A DNA stretch of 64,000 nucleotides from Candidatus Krumholzibacteriia bacterium (lineage in GTDB: Bacteria > Krumholzibacteriota > Krumholzibacteriia > JAJRXK01), in the NCBI GenBank assembly GCA_035268685.1, contig DATFKK010000180.1, positions 1 to 64,000 of the forward strand. Direction: 5' to 3'. The position numbers and the translations under genes are program-made. This document shows, one piece after another, positions 50,966-63,929 of this stretch (position 1 is its first letter; every line of letters starts with the position of its first letter). The notes beneath the pieces were generated by a model. The model had not been told where the DNA came from, ran no database searches, and saw only the letters and a list, made by a program, of their open reading frames with translations.

Positions 50966-53635
50966 ATGTGGATCCTGCTCGCGACCTTGTTGTGGACCGC
51001 CGTGGCTGCTCCGGCGGCGAGCGCCCGGGCGCCGCTCGACGAGCGCATCGGGGCGCTGTTCGACGCCACGGCAGACCTGCTGCAGGACGGACGCGCCGAC
51101 TCGGTGCTGGCCGAGGTCGACGGGCTCGTGTCCGAGGCCACGGCGGCACGTGATCCGGTGGCTCTGATCGCACTGCAGACGCACCGGGGCCGGACACTGG
51201 CGCGGACGAGTCGCTTCGCCCGGGCCGAGGCGGCCCTCCGCGAGGCCCTGGCCACGGCCGAGGCCCACGGCGACTCGACCCGGCTCCTGGAGCCCCTGTA
51301 CCGGATCATCCTCGCCATCGACGCCCAGGGGCGGCCATCGCGGGTGGTGCCCTGGATGCAACGCCTGCTGGACCGCGCGACCGGACTGGGCGACGCACCG
51401 TACGAGGCCCGGGTCCGGACGCTCCTCGCGCGTCGTGCCATGCGGGAGGGTCGGACGGACGAGGCCCAGGCGCACCTGGCACGGGCCGCGGAGATCTTCT
51501 CCGCCGACCGGGAGCTCGCGGCCGATCTGCCCAGCGTGCTGTTGCTCCAGGGTCTGGCCCACGCGAACGGCGGAGATCTGGACGCCGCGCGTCGTTCCTG
51601 GCGGGCTTGCGCCGATTCGAGCCGAGCACTCGACCTGTGGTTCATGGAGGCGAACGCACTCACCAACCTGGGGATCCTCGAAGGGATGGTGGGCGACCCC
51701 GCCGCGGCGGCACGGGTGCTCGAGCGCGCACACGAAGCGCTGCGCGAGGGCGGTCGTCTGCGCGCGGCCGTGACGCCGGCGATCACGTCGGCACGCGCTC
51801 TGTCGTCCCTGGGCCGGTACGACCGCGCCGTCGCACGCCTGGACACGGCGCTGCACGACGCGCGCGAAGCAGGGCTCGTCGATCTGGAGGCCTCGGTCCG
51901 GCGAACGCTCGCCGACGTGCACGCCGAGCGCGGAGCCCGCGGGGCCGCGGTCGTCGAGGCGAGGGCGGGTCTGCGCGCGGCCGAGGAGCACGACAGCGAC
52001 GAGGATCGGCTCCGGTCCGCCGCCACGCTCGCACGCCATCTCGCCGCACGCGACAGTATCCGCGCCGCTCTGACGATCCTCGATGGCGCACCATCGCCCG
52101 ACGGGGGCAGCATCGGGGCGATCCAGGCCCTCGGTGTGCGTAGGCTCCGCTGCGAGCTGCAGCTCCGGGTCGGGGCGAGCGAGAATGTACTCGGCGACAT
52201 CCGGTCCAGCCGGGCGGCGGTGGACTCCCTCGGCCTGCAGAGCGAACGGGTTCCGTTGGCCGTCCTGGAGGTCGAGGCCCTGCTCACGCTCGGTCGCCGC
52301 GACGAGGCGGCGACCGTGGTGCGGGAGGCGATCGGACTCTGGGAGCAACGAAGGCTCGTGACCACCGATCCGCAGTGGCGGGAGGTGATCGGGCGGTGGA
52401 GTCCACGCCTGGCCGAGGCCGCTCTGCGGAGTCGGATCGGTGTCGCGGGGGAGGCGGAGGAGAGCTGGACGGTGCTCCAGCGGCTGCGCACGCGAACGCT
52501 CCTCGAGCGCATGGCAGGACCGCGGGCCGACGACTCGATGCTCGCCGGTCACGGCATCGAGCGGATTCCAGCGCTCGACGATCTGCGGGCGCACCTCGGC
52601 GACCGGGTCTGGATCGAGGTCTTCTGGGGCGAGCGCGCGGTCTGGGTGTGGACGCTCGATGCGACGTCGGTTCGCGTGCGGCGTCTGGACGATCCCGAAG
52701 GACTGCGTGCGCGCGTCGAGCGCCTGGGACGGCTGGCGCAGGGGACCGGCCACGCCGTCGACCCGGCCCTCGTCCTCGACGTCGGACGTACGCTCGGGCG
52801 GGAATTGTTCGGCGCGGACGTGGACGGCCCCGCGTGGATGGTGGCCGACGGTCCGCTCCTCCGCCTGCCGCCGTCGCTGCTGCGCGCCGGTCGCACGGGA
52901 CTGGTTCCGTCGGCGGCGGTCCTCGTGGGGCGCGCGGAGGCCGGGCCGTCGGGTGTCGGCGCATCGCTGTTGGCCCTGGCCGGTGAGCGCGACGGCGACG
53001 GCACGCTCCTGGAAGCAGTCGGTGACGAGATCGCATTCCTCACGACACGCGCCGGCGCACGCAGGGGCGGACGCACCGAACTCGAAGCGCTCGACGAGGT
53101 CGGTGTCCTGCACGTGGCTGCCCATGCCGCGATCGACGACCAGGCTCCGTGGCGCTCGGGTGTGCTCCTTCGCGAGGGACGCACCGAGCACTGGTGGCGG
53201 GCCGAGTCGATCGCCACCACCGCGGCGCCCGTCGATCTCGTGGTGCTCTCCGCCTGTCGCGGTGCCGATGGTCGTGTGATCGACGGCGAGGGCATGGTCG
53301 GATTGACCCAGGCTTTCCTCGTGGCGGGGGCACGGGCGGTGGTCGCCACCGCGTGGCCCGTCGACGACGGCGTGTCGGCCGCCTTCACCCGTGCCTTCTA
53401 CGCGGGGCTCGACCAAGGGCTCTCGGTCGGCGCCGCCGTCGAGGATGCGGTCGCGCGACTGCGCGAACATCCGGCGACGTCGCATCCGCGCCACTGGGCG
53501 CCGTGGACGGTGTACGGGGACGCCTCGGTCCGCCCCCCGGTGTCGCTGGCAACGCCGGTGCCGACCCGGACGCTGCTCGGTGTCCTGCTGCTCGCCGCCG
53601 GTCTCGTGTTCCTGCTGCGGATCGCGCGCCGCTGA
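50966..53635 (+). CDS. membrane-anchored TPR-CHAT (caspase-like) protein
   Basis: About 889 residues. Signal peptide (MWILLATLLWTAVAAPAASA), then a long TPR-like helical array (about 40-520) with RSWRACADSSRAL, NALTNLGILEGMVGDP and similar repeats. A C-terminal CHAT domain (about 560-860) carries His720 in LHVAAHAAIDDQAPW and Cys764 in VVLSACRGADGRVIDGEG, followed by GLTQAFLVAGARAVVATAW. A final helix (TLLGVLLLAAGLVFLLRIARR) anchors the C-terminus in the membrane. CHAT domains are caspase-like cysteine proteases. The topology puts the protease outside the cytoplasm. ATG 50966 is chosen for the signal peptide. Divergent from the ECF sigma/anti-sigma pair. Confidence 0.82.
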   Translation: MWILLATLLWTAVAAPAASARAPLDERIGALFDATADLLQDGRADSVLAEVDGLVSEATAARDPVALIALQTHRGRTLARTSRFARAEAALREALATAEAHGDSTRLLEPLYRIILAIDAQGRPSRVVPWMQRLLDRATGLGDAPYEARVRTLLARRAMREGRTDEAQAHLARAAEIFSADRELAADLPSVLLLQGLAHANGGDLDAARRSWRACADSSRALDLWFMEANALTNLGILEGMVGDPAAAARVLERAHEALREGGRLRAAVTPAITSARALSSLGRYDRAVARLDTALHDAREAGLVDLEASVRRTLADVHAERGARGAAVVEARAGLRAAEEHDSDEDRLRSAATLARHLAARDSIRAALTILDGAPSPDGGSIGAIQALGVRRLRCELQLRVGASENVLGDIRSSRAAVDSLGLQSERVPLAVLEVEALLTLGRRDEAATVVREAIGLWEQRRLVTTDPQWREVIGRWSPRLAEAALRSRIGVAGEAEESWTVLQRLRTRTLLERMAGPRADDSMLAGHGIERIPALDDLRAHLGDRVWIEVFWGERAVWVWTLDATSVRVRRLDDPEGLRARVERLGRLAQGTGHAVDPALVLDVGRTLGRELFGADVDGPAWMVADGPLLRLPPSLLRAGRTGLVPSAAVLVGRAEAGPSGVGASLLALAGERDGDGTLLEAVGDEIAFLTTRAGARRGGRTELEALDEVGVLHVAAHAAIDDQAPWRSGVLLREGRTEHWWRAESIATTAAPVDLVVLSACRGADGRVIDGEGMVGLTQAFLVAGARAVVATAWPVDDGVSAAFTRAFYAGLDQGLSVGAAVEDAVARLREHPATSHPRHWAPWTVYGDASVRPPVSLATPVPTRTLLGVLLLAAGLVFLLRIARR

Positions 53636-58543: not shown

Positions 58544-58712
58544 CCGCCTCGGGCCTCGGAGGCGTGTCGCGCACGGGACGCCCTTGCCCTCGTGGCGCCC
58601 GGCGCATAGGGTGCCCGATGGGAACCGAGCGGCACGTGGCGTGTATGCTGGCGGTCATCGGTCCCCAACGGCCTTCCTCCCGATCCGATCGAACGCAGGA
58701 GGTCGAACCCCC

Positions 58713-60080
58713 ATGTCGTCCACGACGCGCCCTTTGGCCGTCCGGAGTCCGCAGCCGTCCCGATTCGCCACCGAAGTCCGCATTTCGTCGGAACCGGGTG
58801 TGCGAGAACTCCCAGGAGAGGCGGTGACCGTGCCCGACTACACCGCCCACCCCTTCCTCGATCCCGATCTGTTCCGCCGCGATCGCTACGCACTGCGCTA
58901 CTTCCAGAGGCTGTTCCGCGATTCCCTTCGCAACGACTGGCAGTACTCACGCCTGCTGAATCGTCTCCTGCACCCGATGGGCGACGAATCCGCGCTCGAA
59001 GTCGACGAGCGCGTGCTGGCCAGCTACTTCGACGACGCCTCGCGCTACGTCTCCGAGTTGTCGGACCTCGTCGCGCCCGACGACCGTCAGCGCTACGAAC
59101 CACTGCCCGAAGTGGCCGAGTGCAACGATCTGCGCGAACTCGGCGAGTTGTTGTTCGCCCGTGACCACGCCGATCCGGGGCGCGCCCGACGTGTCCGGTT
59201 CGAGGCCCAGCGCAAGCTGTACCTCACCAAGCTGCTCATCCAGATCGAGCACACCCGCGTGGTGCAGGACGGGCCGCGCCACCGGCGTTACCTGATCGAA
59301 CTGCTCGACCGCGAGCTGTGGGCCTTCGCCACCGACGCGCGCGACGAGGTCGCCGCCTACGCCCTGGACCCGGAACAGGACGTCTCGCGCAACGGCGATG
59401 ATCTCGAGTCGTGGAACTTCCGGGTGCGGCGCGTGCAGCGCGCGATCCCGGGCGGCGAGATCGACGTCGACGTCTATCACTTCGACACCCGCTTCAAGCG
59501 CGAGAGCGCCGGCTACGACTACAGCCCCGGCGGGACGGAGTACCGCGTGGCCGAGCGTACCCGCTACGCCCAGATGAAACGCAACCGCTCGGCGTCGATC
59601 CTCTCGAAGATGCTGCGCAAGGGGATCAACGACCCCAACTCGATCACCGACATGCTCGGCGCGAAGTTCATCGTGGCCACCGAGCGCGACGTCCAGCGGC
59701 TCGCCGAGCTGCTGCACCACGTGCTCGGGGGGATCTTCCTGTTCCGCAACCAGGTCGACCTGTTCCGCCGGCCCGAGGACCACGGAATGCTGAACCGGTT
59801 CAGTGCCCCGGACTTCAAGACCTTCAAGGAAGACGTGGACATCCTGTACCGTCCCGCCGAACAGGAGAACGGCCGGGCCTACTTGTTCAGCGTGGAGCTG
59901 CAGATCTTCACCGTGGAGAGTTTCCTGCAGACGGTCCACAGTCGCGCCTACACCTCGCACCGCGAGTACAAGCGGCGCCAGTTCCTTCAGGGCGTGATGC
60001 CCTACGTGTTTCCGGCCAGTCTGTACGGCGCTCCCTCGCCTTCGCAGGAGCGCGGATCCCTCGACGGAGAAGCTGCCTGA
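58713..60080 (+). CDS. divergent RelA/SpoT-fold protein with a novel N-terminal domain
   Basis: About 455 residues, cytoplasmic. The N-terminal ~280 residues are helical and unrecognised (RYALRYFQRLFRDSLRNDWQ, QRKLYLTKLLIQIEHTRVVQ). From about residue 284 the layout follows the (p)ppGpp-synthetase nucleotidyltransferase fold: SASILSKM (295-300, cf. SIxxKM), SITDMLGAKFIV (310-321, cf. D..G.RI.V), VELQIFT (394-400, cf. VEVQIRT with catalytic-type Glu) and HSRAYTSHREYK (409-420). The substrate-lysine positions are not all conserved, so activity is uncertain. ATG 58713 has AGGAGG nine bases ahead. The stop overlaps the STAS gene start (TGATG). Confidence 0.6.
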   Translation: MSSTTRPLAVRSPQPSRFATEVRISSEPGVRELPGEAVTVPDYTAHPFLDPDLFRRDRYALRYFQRLFRDSLRNDWQYSRLLNRLLHPMGDESALEVDERVLASYFDDASRYVSELSDLVAPDDRQRYEPLPEVAECNDLRELGELLFARDHADPGRARRVRFEAQRKLYLTKLLIQIEHTRVVQDGPRHRRYLIELLDRELWAFATDARDEVAAYALDPEQDVSRNGDDLESWNFRVRRVQRAIPGGEIDVDVYHFDTRFKRESAGYDYSPGGTEYRVAERTRYAQMKRNRSASILSKMLRKGINDPNSITDMLGAKFIVATERDVQRLAELLHHVLGGIFLFRNQVDLFRRPEDHGMLNRFSAPDFKTFKEDVDILYRPAEQENGRAYLFSVELQIFTVESFLQTVHSRAYTSHREYKRRQFLQGVMPYVFPASLYGAPSPSQERGSLDGEAA

Positions 60081-60436
60081 TGCCCATTCGATTCCAGGAC
60101 GAAACCCGGCGCGGAGTGCGCGTGGTCCACCTCAGCGGGTCGTGGACTGCCGGCCCCGACGACGATCCCCTGCGCGCACAGTACCGACAGTGGATCGAGA
60201 ACGGCGAGCGTGTCTTCGTCATGGACCTGTCGGCTCTCGATCTCCTGAACTCGATCGGTCTGGGCAAGCTGGTGAGCTACTACACGTCTTTGGCCCGTGA
60301 AGGCGGCCGGGTGGCCCTCGCCGGGCTGACCGAACGCAACCGGCGTGCGGCCTACATCGCCCGTATCCTTGACCTGTTCGAGGAGTTCGAGGACGTCGAC
60401 ACGGCGGTGGACGCCGTCGCGCCGGCGGAGAACTGA
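60080..60436 (+). CDS. STAS-domain protein (anti-sigma-factor-antagonist type)
   Basis: About 118 residues, a single STAS domain: VRVVHLSGSWTAGPDDD, VFVMDLSALDLLNSIGLGKL and GRVALAGLTERNRRA. The serine in LNSIGLG is at the position that switch kinases phosphorylate in SpoIIAA/RsbV-type proteins. ATG shares one base with the stop of the RelA/SpoT-like gene, so both are translated together; a regulatory link to it is inferred. No partner anti-sigma kinase is seen in the window. The DUF302 gene follows after 32 bases. Confidence 0.82.
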   Translation: MPIRFQDETRRGVRVVHLSGSWTAGPDDDPLRAQYRQWIENGERVFVMDLSALDLLNSIGLGKLVSYYTSLAREGGRVALAGLTERNRRAAYIARILDLFEEFEDVDTAVDAVAPAEN

Positions 60437-60468: not shown

Positions 60469-60855
60469 ATGAACTACGGCTACACCCGTGAAGTCGATCA
60501 TCCCTTCGACCGCGCCGTCGAGCGTGTGACCGAAGAACTCGGCAAGGAGGGCTTCGGCGTGCTGACGTCGATCGACGTCAAGGACACGCTCAAGAAGAAG
60601 CTCGACGAGGATCGCCGGCCCTACGTGATCCTCGGCGCGTGCAATCCGCACTTCGCCCATCAGGCCCTGCAGATGGAAGAGGATCTCGGGCTGTTGCTCC
60701 CGTGCAACGCGGTGGTCTACGAGAACGAGAAGGGCCACACCGTGATCGGCGCGATCGACACCCACGCCATGCTCGGACTCGTGGGCAACGACGCACTCGA
60801 CCCGGTGGCCGACGAGGTCAACGCGAGGCTGCGGCGCGCGATCGACGCCGTCTGA
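60469..60855 (+). CDS. DUF302-family protein
   Basis: About 128 residues, a full single DUF302 domain: FDRAVERVTEELGKEGFGVL, the central VILGACNPHFAHQALQM and LLLPCNAVVYENEKGHTVIG. DUF302 proteins are small homodimeric, possibly ligand-binding or redox-related proteins with no fixed activity. The two conserved Cys (in GACNP and LLPCN) are present. ATG with GGAGCGAG ahead. It follows the STAS gene and converges on the FIST gene 14 bases away. Confidence 0.82.
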   Translation: MNYGYTREVDHPFDRAVERVTEELGKEGFGVLTSIDVKDTLKKKLDEDRRPYVILGACNPHFAHQALQMEEDLGLLLPCNAVVYENEKGHTVIGAIDTHAMLGLVGNDALDPVADEVNARLRRAIDAV

Positions 60856-60869
60856 ACGACACCGGCCGG

Positions 60870-62060
60870 TCAGCCGCTGCGGGGGCGGACCACACCGAGC
60901 ACGGTCGTGTAGCCGTGCACGTAGGTGTTGCCCCCGACCGGCCCGATCTCTCCATTGGCGAAGAACCCGGCCACGGGCATGGGTCCGAGTGCTTCGTGCA
61001 CCGAGGACACGTCGTGGTTCGCGGTCCCGAAGAGGTTGCGGCCCCGGCCGAGGCAGCTGAACTGCAGGACGGCGGCGGGTTCGGTGTCGGGTCGGCCGCC
61101 GACATAGCGCTGCAGGAGCAGGTCGAGATCGGCGGCCGCGGTCCGTCCGTCGCGCACGTGGAACTGCACCGTCTGGCCCTGCCGCAGCTCCGATCCGACC
61201 GCGATCACGCCCGATTCCCGGTGCATGCCCAGGATGTTCCGCACCAGGAAGTCGCCGCGGCCCATCTCCTCGCGCATCTCGTCGACGACCAGGCCCAGGT
61301 GCAGGGCGTGTCGGGCGAGCTGCCGTTCGTCGTCGTCGAGAGTGGTGAAGACCTCCTGCAGGACCTCCGTCGGCGGACGCTCGTCGAGTGCCTGCAACAA
61401 CTGGCCTTCGCACTCGGTGATCCGGGCCGGCGCGCCGATCGGCCGGCAACCCTGGGCCACGATCGGGTCCACCCGGACGTTGCCCCACACGGCGAGCACC
61501 GTCGCCCCCTCGCGTTCGATGCCCTCGTCGGTGAACAGGGCGGTCGCGCCCGGTCCGCTCGCACCGCTGGCCAGCCCCCCGACGACTCGCGACGCGGGGT
61601 AGGCGTAGTCCAGGCCCTGCAGCAGCTGTTGGTGGTCGATCGTGAAGGGATCGCACAGCACCACGAAGTCGGGGTGGAGCTGGGGGTCCACACCGAAGAG
61701 GTCACGCCACGGAGCGGGGCTCCCGTCGAGGGGTGGCAGGTCGTCGGTGCCGACCGACGTGCACCGCATGTCCACGCCGGGCAGGTTGGCGGCGAGCAGG
61801 ACGATCCCCGGACGGTCCTCGAGCTCCAGGTGGGAGCCGATGACCGCGGCGGCCGAGCATCCGAGGATCGAGGGGCCCGGACCGAAGCCGTCACGGAGAC
61901 GATCCACGACGCGCCCGAGATCGAACAGGTGCTGTTCGCTGGCGTGGACGAAGAGGAGATCCACCGGGTCGCCGTTCATCCCCTGGCGGACGTCGTCGAC
62001 CACGGCGTCGAGCGCGTGGTCGATGTCCTTCGTGTCACTGATGGCACTGACCCAACGCAC
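60870..62060 (-). CDS. FIST-domain signalling protein
   Basis: About 396 residues. The N-terminal FIST domain shows VDLLFVHASEQHL, PSILGCSAAAVIGSHLE and SRVVGGLASGASGPGATALF. The C-terminal FIST_C domain includes FLVRNILGMHRESGVIAVGS, ALLQFSCLGRGRNLFG-type wording (VLQFSCLGRGRNLFG) and GPMPVAGFFANGEIGPVGGN. FIST proteins are thought to bind small ligands and are usually joined to kinases or methyl-accepting proteins; this one stands alone. GTG 62060 with GGGAGGA six bases ahead. No transmembrane helix. Confidence 0.85.
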   Translation of the reverse strand: MRWVSAISDTKDIDHALDAVVDDVRQGMNGDPVDLLFVHASEQHLFDLGRVVDRLRDGFGPGPSILGCSAAAVIGSHLELEDRPGIVLLAANLPGVDMRCTSVGTDDLPPLDGSPAPWRDLFGVDPQLHPDFVVLCDPFTIDHQQLLQGLDYAYPASRVVGGLASGASGPGATALFTDEGIEREGATVLAVWGNVRVDPIVAQGCRPIGAPARITECEGQLLQALDERPPTEVLQEVFTTLDDDERQLARHALHLGLVVDEMREEMGRGDFLVRNILGMHRESGVIAVGSELRQGQTVQFHVRDGRTAAADLDLLLQRYVGGRPDTEPAAVLQFSCLGRGRNLFGTANHDVSSVHEALGPMPVAGFFANGEIGPVGGNTYVHGYTTVLGVVRPRSG

Positions 62061-62244: not shown

Positions 62245-63129
62245 ATGATCATCCCACCTCGCCGTCTCCTGCTCGCGCCGCTCCTGCTGCTCGTCGCCTG
62301 CGGCGGCTCGCCCGACCGCGGCGCCCCTCGTTCCGGCGTCCCGGAGCGCGTCGTGTTGTTCGGGCCGAATCTCACGCAGACCGCCCTGCGGCTGGGCCAC
62401 GCCGACCGGATCGCCGCGATCACCGACTACTGCCACTGGACGCACCCCTCGGCCGAACCCCCGCGGATCGGGGGTGCGCTGGATCCGGACCTCGAGACCA
62501 TCGCACGGATCGACCCCGACCTCCTCGTACTGCAGGGACGGAGCGAGAGACTGCGCTCCTTCGCGGCCGATCAGGGTTTCGCGGTGGCCGACGTCGAGAT
62601 GGACGACGACGTGTCGTCCATCCTGCGGGGCGTGGTGGCGATCGATTCCCTGCTCGGAGGCGGAGAGGCCGTCCGCGGCCACGCCCTGGTCGACACCCTT
62701 CGGGCCGAACTCGCCGCGCTGCGTGGGCCGCGGAGCACCGGCGGCCCGACCGTCCTTCCCGTCGTCTCGCGGGACCCCGACACCGTGCGCAGCGTCCTGA
62801 CCGCGGGAGACGGAACGTTCCTGCACGAGCTGCTGCTGCACGTGGGTGCACGAGCCTGGACGGAGGGACGGGGGCGTGGCTACTTCGACGTGTCGTTGGA
62901 GGAGCTGGTGGCCGATCCGCCCGACCTCGTGCTCGAGATCGCCGCCGCCGGGGCCCCGACCGACCCACGCCGTTGGCGTGAACCCTGGTTCGAGCTGCTC
63001 GGCGATGGCGTGGTCGTGCGCCGCCTCGAGACGCCGACCGCCCTGATTCCGGGGCCGGGCATCGTGCGCACCGCGCGCGCCCTCGCCGAGGCGACGTCCG
63101 GGATCGAAGCCGCGGAGGGTCCGCGGTGA
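62245..63129 (+). CDS. substrate-binding lipoprotein of a metal-chelate/B12-type ABC importer
   Basis: About 294 residues. Lipoprotein signal with lipobox LVAC (LLLAPLLLLVACGGS). The body has the two-lobed helical-backbone layout of BtuF/FecB-type receptors: VVLFGPNLTQTALRLGHADR, AAITDYCHWTHPS, PDLETIARIDPDLLVLQGRS and a late VADPPDLVLEIAA. It would bind cobalamin, heme or a siderophore outside the inner membrane; which one cannot be told. Its stop overlaps the start of the ATPase gene (GTGA at 63126-63129), so the genes form an operon. Confidence 0.82.
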   Translation: MIIPPRRLLLAPLLLLVACGGSPDRGAPRSGVPERVVLFGPNLTQTALRLGHADRIAAITDYCHWTHPSAEPPRIGGALDPDLETIARIDPDLLVLQGRSERLRSFAADQGFAVADVEMDDDVSSILRGVVAIDSLLGGGEAVRGHALVDTLRAELAALRGPRSTGGPTVLPVVSRDPDTVRSVLTAGDGTFLHELLLHVGARAWTEGRGRGYFDVSLEELVADPPDLVLEIAAAGAPTDPRRWREPWFELLGDGVVVRRLETPTALIPGPGIVRTARALAEATSGIEAAEGPR

Positions 63130-63929
63130 GCGGGACCGAAGGTCTGCGGATCGACGCAGTGGGCTTCGGCTACGAGGCCCAGGTCCCCGTGCTGACCGGG
63201 GTCGACCTCACCGTCGCGCCCGGAGATCTCGTCGTGCTGGTGGGAGCGAACGGAAGTGGCAAGAGCACCCTGCTGCGTCTGGCGGCGGGCCTGCGCGATC
63301 CGGACCAGGGAACGGTGACGCTCGACGGACAGGACGTGGCCGCACTCGATCCGCGCGCGCGCGCGCGGGCCATCGCCTTCCTGCCGCAGGACGTCCAGCC
63401 CGTGCACCGCTTGACCGCGCGCGAGGTCATCGAGCTCGGTCGGCATCCGCACCGATCGGTGGCGTGGTCGTCGGCCGGACCGACCGACCGGGCCGCCGTG
63501 GACGAGGCCATCGCCGTCTGCGACGTGGTCGAGCTGCAGACCCGTGCCTTCGACACGCTCAGCGGTGGGGAGCGGCAGCGGGTGTCGATCGCGGCCGCGA
63601 TCGCCCAGAGCGGGCGCGTTCTCGTGCTGGACGAACCGACCGCGGCGCTGGACCTGCCCCACCAGGTGTCGGTCTTCGAATTGCTGCACGCCCGCGCGCG
63701 CGCGGGGCTCGCGGTGCTGATCGCGACGCACGACCTGAACCTCGCGGCGTCCTTCGGCGATCGGGTGGTGGCCCTGCACCAGGGACGGGTCCTGGCCGGC
63801 GGAAGCCCGGGCGACGTGATCCGGCCCGAGGTGCTGGGGCCGGTCCTCGGTCCCAGCAGCTGGATCGGTCCCCATCCCGCGACCGGGGGGCCCTGCGTGC
63901 TGCCCCGGGCGGGCGGCGAGGCCCGATGA
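63126..63929 (+). CDS. ATPase subunit of a metal-chelate/B12-type ABC importer
   Basis: About 267 residues. Walker A GANGSGKST, Q-loop in IAFLPQDVQPVHRLTAREV, signature LSGGERQRVSIA, Walker B VLVLDEPTAALDLPHQ and switch His in ATHDLNLAASFGDR. The pattern is that of FecE/BtuD/FhuC ATPases. GTG start overlaps the preceding stop and its own stop overlaps the ATG of the permease gene (ATGA), so the three proteins are produced together. Confidence 0.9.
   Translation: MSGTEGLRIDAVGFGYEAQVPVLTGVDLTVAPGDLVVLVGANGSGKSTLLRLAAGLRDPDQGTVTLDGQDVAALDPRARARAIAFLPQDVQPVHRLTAREVIELGRHPHRSVAWSSAGPTDRAAVDEAIAVCDVVELQTRAFDTLSGGERQRVSIAAAIAQSGRVLVLDEPTAALDLPHQVSVFELLHARARAGLAVLIATHDLNLAASFGDRVVALHQGRVLAGGSPGDVIRPEVLGPVLGPSSWIGPHPATGGPCVLPRAGGEAR

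Follow-up and report, generated by a model that had tools for sequence, protein, structure and literature searches.

(p)ppGpp is the alarm molecule of starvation, and the question raised by the locus described here is whether a protein that carries the motifs of the RelA/SpoT synthetases, and whose gene overlaps that of a STAS-domain protein, makes such an alarmone, makes another product or makes nothing at all. The locus lies in a window of 64,000 nucleotides, the whole stretch of DNA that was analysed, from the genome of a Candidatus Krumholzibacteriia bacterium (4.59 Mb in 202 contigs, labelled G000). The reading we propose, which sequence comparison makes reasonably probable, is that the first protein, P0001, would be a divergent SYNTH member with a helical N-terminus of its own, acting as an ATP-Mg pyrophosphotransferase on an acceptor unlike that of Rel, and that it would be an accessory enzyme, not a toxin, with the STAS protein as a local regulator at most.

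The gene pair and its surroundings

The open reading frame, its motifs and the coupling to the STAS gene, as given by the initial annotation, are confirmed by direct reading of the sequence (Table 1). The stop codon TGA of P0001 (60078-60080) overlaps the ATG of the STAS gene at 60080 in a TGATG, and coding statistics call both genes of the pair identically. Four genomes represent f1, the taxonomic family of the window, and the order of the DUF302 and FIST genes that follow the pair is kept in one of them, G008, and not in G007 or G009. Further away in the window are encoded a TPR-repeat protein with a CHAT (caspase-like) domain at its C-terminus (50966-53635) and a Peripla_BP_2 periplasmic binding protein whose gene overlaps that of an ABC ATPase (62245-63929), a pair of the metal/cobalamin uptake type that is syntenic in G009. 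A canonical long Rel is encoded separately in the same genome (contig C94).

Table 1. Features of the locus and of its two proteins, in window coordinates
Feature	Position	Strand	Basis or conservation
Shine-Dalgarno AGGAGG	58697..58702	+	Read directly; 10 nt 5' of ATG 58713
Predicted RelA/SpoT-fold protein P0001, 455 aa	58713..60080	+	ORF, coding call, homologues, profile chain
N-terminal region predicted mainly helical, residues ~41-216	58833..59360	+	TIGR04562 similarity; low-confidence model
R260-F-K262, invariant RxK	59490..59498	+	27/27; 33 residues upstream
S295-x3-K299-x2-R302, putative phosphate-binding helix (FaRel2 S70/K74/R77)	59595..59618	+	26/27, 27/27, 26/27
D313-x2-G316, putative Mg-binding catalytic Asp and Gly (FaRel2 D90, G93)	59649..59660	+	27/27 both; hhalign register
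F368...K372, putative acceptor loop (RelSeq Y308...H312)	59814..59828	+	Register via TIGR04562 vs YwaC
E395-x-Q397 (FaRel2 E145/Q147)	59895..59903	+	27/27 both
H416-x3-K420 (H..YK after EVQIRT motif of Rel)	59958..59972	+	27/27 both; aligned to Rel
STAS-domain protein P0002, 118 aa	60080..60436	+	PF01740 2.5e-11, PF13466 3.1e-7
Ser58 of STAS protein (LLNSIGLG)	60251..60253	+	Read from sequence
DUF302 gene	60469-60855	+	3' of STAS gene
FIST-domain (N/C) gene	60870-62060	-	3' of DUF302 gene

Kinship with the RelA/SpoT synthetases

Taken alone, P0001 matches the Pfam RelA_SpoT model PF04607 with E=0.0045 (17.7 bits against a cut-off of 27), a model that is matched by 14 of the 27 aligned members of its family (best 5.5e-6), the syntenic homologue in G009 covering positions 7-92 of 113 (2e-4). 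The NCBIfam models TIGR04562 and TIGR04552 are reached with E values of 1.7e-5 and 2.9e-5, but the two bit scores, 24.2 for a curated cut-off of 140 and 23.5 for one of 125, fall far short; P0001 is thus related to these two families and stands outside both. Both already exist, are uncharacterised and are already marked in part by PF04607, which all 11 members of the TIGR04562 alignment match (best 1.4e-8). The resemblance extends over most of the length and includes a predicted helical N-terminus and the motifs K..S...K, D..G, S..Y/F, E-x-Q and H..YK..Q, whereas P0001 lacks the Arg found five residues after the catalytic Asp and carries an extra RFK segment.

The homology to RelA/SpoT proteins passes mainly through TIGR04562 as an intermediate family and is well supported, because the chain of profiles scores far above its shuffled controls. 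The profile of the window family aligns to TIGR04562 with all motifs in register (hhalign, 97.2%, E=2.9e-11), and TIGR04562 aligns in turn to the synthetase domains of long Rel proteins (hhalign, 96.0%, 4.5e-9), the score against 40 such domains being 67.3, against at most 30.5 for 40 block-shuffled controls and 19.5 for the reversed profile. The joint alignment of the window family and TIGR04562 scores 62.7 against the same 40 domains. Without the intermediate the window family scores 36.0 (38.5%, 3.3e-4), with shuffled controls up to 27.2 and the reversed one at 12.0, and this modest direct match to Rel counts against the reading that we favour. Among PDB sequences, alarmone ((p)ppGpp) synthetases make up 12 of the 13 listed for the TIGR04562 profile (best YwaC, 1.8e-5; RelSeq, 0.0047), and the window-family profile searched directly against them gave nothing relevant. 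AlphaFold models of the full protein and of its C-terminal part, built from a two-sequence alignment (the window protein and that of L002), reached a pLDDT of 36.6 and 38.5, and a fold search of the PDB with the second of these low-confidence models gave no match under E 0.001. The fold proposed for P0001 therefore rests on profiles, and its details are to be read as predictions.

Homologues occur in 33 of 80 genomes of Krumholzibacteriota and in all seven genomes of a second phylum; no relative was found in the viral contigs searched. TIGR04552 and TIGR04562 turned up in 11 genomes out of 387, none of them from the phylum of the window. A single distant homologue lies in a third phylum (G157:C246, L112:1943-3460; 505 aa); it lacks the RFK motif, has its acceptor-loop region interrupted by a long insertion and is followed after 2 nt by a gene similar to those of UDP-muramate ligases, and the search of the single genome of that phylum for TIGR04552 gave nothing. 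The genome of the window itself holds a second, very diverged copy, 33-35% identical, downstream of a NapH-type ferredoxin gene (G000:C38, L033:8555-9847), which groups on a long branch with the clade of the second phylum (100/100), and a lateral transfer is possible. In the literature, our search found TIGR04552 mentioned only in a table on the evolution of the predatory bacterium Bdellovibrio, where a gene of that family in Bdellovibrio sp. NC01 carries an indel in one experimental-evolution population (PMC9888234). A survey of RSH proteins from 2011 distinguished 12 groups of small alarmone synthetases (PMC3153485), one of which, for example bdRel, may overlap TIGR04552.

The active site and the N-terminal region

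The residues were counted in an alignment of 27 homologues and the active sites mapped by the contact residues described for FaRel2 (PMC11782079). The motifs of P0001, which are SILSKM (295-300), D..G (313-316), VELQI (394-398) and H...K (416-420), are not a product of chance, since K299, D313, G316, E395, Q397, H416 and K420 are invariant; both the motifs and the synthetase kinship claimed at the outset thus hold, the latter by way of the relatives and the controlled profile chain. Other positions have changed. Position 318, where FaRel2 has the donor-site Arg that contacts adenine (R95), is Met in 20/27 and Lys in 3/27. The RxK of FaRel2 (R64 and K66, which precede the Ser by six and four residues) falls on positions 289 and 291, which are variable, and the invariant R260-x-K262 would be a candidate replacement for it, apparently separated from the SILSKM helix by an insertion. 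On the acceptor side, S..FKxFK takes the place of the canonical loop PKxNGYxSLH: the position of the G-loop Tyr (FaRel2 Y128) is Phe in 19 and Tyr in 8 of the 27 proteins, and that of His312 of RelSeq is Lys372 in all of them, a position at which members of TIGR04552/TIGR04562 have N, Q, H or K. These comparisons indicate that the catalytic core is kept and the acceptor side rebuilt. Since the R95 equivalent is mostly Met and the canonical RxK is displaced, the binding of ATP by P0001 could be lost or rearranged.

Such changes bear on two other explanations. In the first, which we regard as unlikely, P0001 would be a pseudo-enzyme: a domain derived from RelA/SpoT would bind a nucleotide or an alarmone as a sensor, with no catalysis, and would pass the signal on by way of the N-terminal domain or of the STAS protein. 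The donor-site Arg mostly lost, the displaced RxK and the mostly Phe G-loop position would agree with this, as would the presence of a separate canonical long Rel in the same genome and the impaired catalysis of the FaRel2 mutant Y128F (PMC11782079); however, the Mg/catalytic Asp, the Glu and Gln of the donor site and the Lys of the phosphate-binding helix are each kept in 27/27, which would be unusual for a dead enzyme, and the R260-x-K262 pair is invariant. In the second, quite unlikely in our opinion, P0001 would be a conventional small alarmone synthetase under STAS control, using ATP together with GTP, GDP or ATP to make (p)ppGpp or (p)ppApp. Superfamily, catalytic residues and monofunctional architecture are indeed those expected, but PKxNGYxSLH is not conserved, the adenine Arg is missing and the STAS linkage is found in three genomes only. 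Compared with synthetases of the RelP/RelQ type (YwaC, PDB 6fgk), P0001 is likewise monofunctional and conserves the positions of the catalytic Asp, Glu, Gln, Lys, Ser and Arg, but it counts ~455 residues against ~210-260, has a long N-terminus predicted to be helical, lacks the acceptor loop GYxSLH and has a changed donor Arg.

With long Rel/RelA/SpoT enzymes (PDB 1vj7), P0001 shares the order of the synthetase motifs and differs by lacking HD, TGS and ACT domains. That it lacks all three, as first annotated, is borne out: a Pfam scan of the whole protein detected neither TGS nor ACT, giving the weak PF04607 match only, and the N-terminal profile compared by hhalign with 40 Rel HD domains scored 16.9, below shuffled controls that reached 19.6, so an HD remnant in the N-terminus was rejected. 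The description of this region as some 280 helical residues of unknown type needs more nuance. A helical structure is predicted for residues ~55-216 by a low-confidence model; residues 1-40 are unconserved, and the conserved stretch ~232-288, which contains the invariant R260-F-K262 and precedes the SILSKM helix, is partly predicted as strands, in low-confidence models only. Nor is the region wholly without relatives, given its distant similarity to the N-terminus of TIGR04562 (hhalign, 33%, 4.5e-4), although the TIGR04552/TIGR04562 families are themselves uncharacterised.

Partner genes and the proposed mechanism

The STAS gene adjoins the P0001 gene in three of the four f1 genomes, G000, G008 and G007, which belong to two genera. 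The three STAS proteins are 49-56% identical and all have Ser58, the segment LLNSIGLG being identical in the neighbours at L035 and L002. Ser58 occupies the position that corresponds to the phosphorylatable Ser in SpoIIAA/RsbV, the preceding Asp being Asn. P0002 resembles the anti-sigma antagonists of the SpoIIAA/RsbV type in its PF01740 match and its Ser at the regulatory position, and differs from them in that DSS is NSI, in that no kinase or phosphatase gene was found to adjoin it and in remaining below the cut-off of the antagonist model TIGR00377 (1.5e-9). Next to the pair we found neither an anti-sigma kinase gene nor a phosphatase gene; the genome has, in other places, RsbW-type kinases, one of them adjoining a further STAS gene, and some nine SpoIIE-type phosphatase loci, so that partner switching would be possible only in trans.

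In the fourth genome, G009 (L036), the gene has the same flanks, with aldehyde dehydrogenase and outer-membrane-type genes upstream and periplasmic-binding and ABC genes downstream, and the peptidase, STAS, DUF302 and FIST genes are absent. As the three STAS-bearing proteins cluster in the tree (98/96) with that of G009 as sister, either the STAS gene was acquired in a single event or G009 has lost it. No STAS gene stands beside the paralogue in the genome of the window, at 26 loci of f6, another taxonomic family of the phylum, or in the second phylum. The coupling first annotated is therefore real in three f1 genomes, a linkage conserved across the family had to be rejected, and the STAS protein is at most a local regulator.

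A different partner accompanies the gene in f6. There, a gene for a PLP enzyme of the methionine gamma-lyase type lies directly upstream, mostly 11-74 nt away, at every one of the 26 loci that can be read on this side; it comes nearest to methionine gamma-lyase, with a score under the equivalog cut-off. Further upstream (L037-L051 and others) there is an opposite-strand gene for a subtilisin-like protease and sometimes a Sir2-like gene. The partner gene thus differs between lineages, STAS here and the methionine gamma-lyase type in f6, and in the second phylum neither of them adjoins the family gene. Among the papers searched, none links a small alarmone synthetase with methionine gamma-lyase.

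The distribution of partners also weighs on the comparison with toxSAS enzymes suggested in the initial annotation, and on a reading in which P0001 would be a toxin acting by tRNA CCA pyrophosphorylation or (pp)pApp synthesis, with the STAS protein as a novel antitoxin. P0001 shares with FaRel2, CapRel and FaRel a SYNTH fold, here predicted, extra N-terminal helices, likewise predicted, a variant acceptor site and a small paired gene, here overlapping, and the tRNA-directed toxSAS have likewise additional N-terminal helices and a reduced basic patch on the acceptor side (PMC11782079). But the STAS partner is not one of the known antitoxins, and the family as a whole can do without it, since homologues at the syntenic L036, in f6 and in the second phylum have no STAS gene beside them; the steady distribution and the conservation of a metabolic neighbour, together with the lack of any match in the defence library (PADLOC), disfavours the comparison and makes a toxin very improbable.

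The mechanism that we propose builds on the observed homology, residue conservation, distribution and gene neighbourhoods. Behind the helical N-terminal domain, a synthetase-type domain (~250-440), devoid of HD hydrolase, TGS and ACT, would most likely bind ATP-Mg through D313, E395, Q397, K299 and S295 and pass pyrophosphate from ATP to an acceptor other than the GDP/GTP of Rel; because YxSLH has become FKxFK and the Arg contacting adenine is changed, the binding of this acceptor probably differs from that of GDP or GTP in Rel. P0001 would be a vertically inherited accessory enzyme of the chromosome, of housekeeping type, and not a toxin. In this lineage the TGATG overlap and the kept Ser58 suggest a shared transcript and a partner with a regulatory role, and in the three f1 genomes the gene is probably co-transcribed with that of the STAS protein, which could tune the enzyme or relay its state; in f6, the operon partner would be the PLP enzyme of the methionine gamma-lyase type. 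A bolder form of this proposal, speculative and unlikely as a whole, would make the family a separate branch of alarmone-type enzymology, joined with TIGR04552 and present in at least two phyla, in which an active pyrophosphotransferase serves a new acceptor (not GTP, GDP or ATP) and is coupled in one lineage to the breakdown of sulfur amino acids and in another to a STAS switch.

In conclusion, our analysis ties an uncharacterised and conserved family, together with TIGR04552/TIGR04562, to the RelA/SpoT enzymes. Enzymes of this type have already given unexpected products, such as (p)ppApp and the pyrophosphate of tRNA-CCA, and for this reason a family whose catalytic core appears to be intact and whose acceptor loop is new offers a concrete place to look for another one. 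The linkage to the methionine gamma-lyase type, present in 26/26 loci of f6, provides a testable functional lead, one that would have been missed had only the STAS link been considered.
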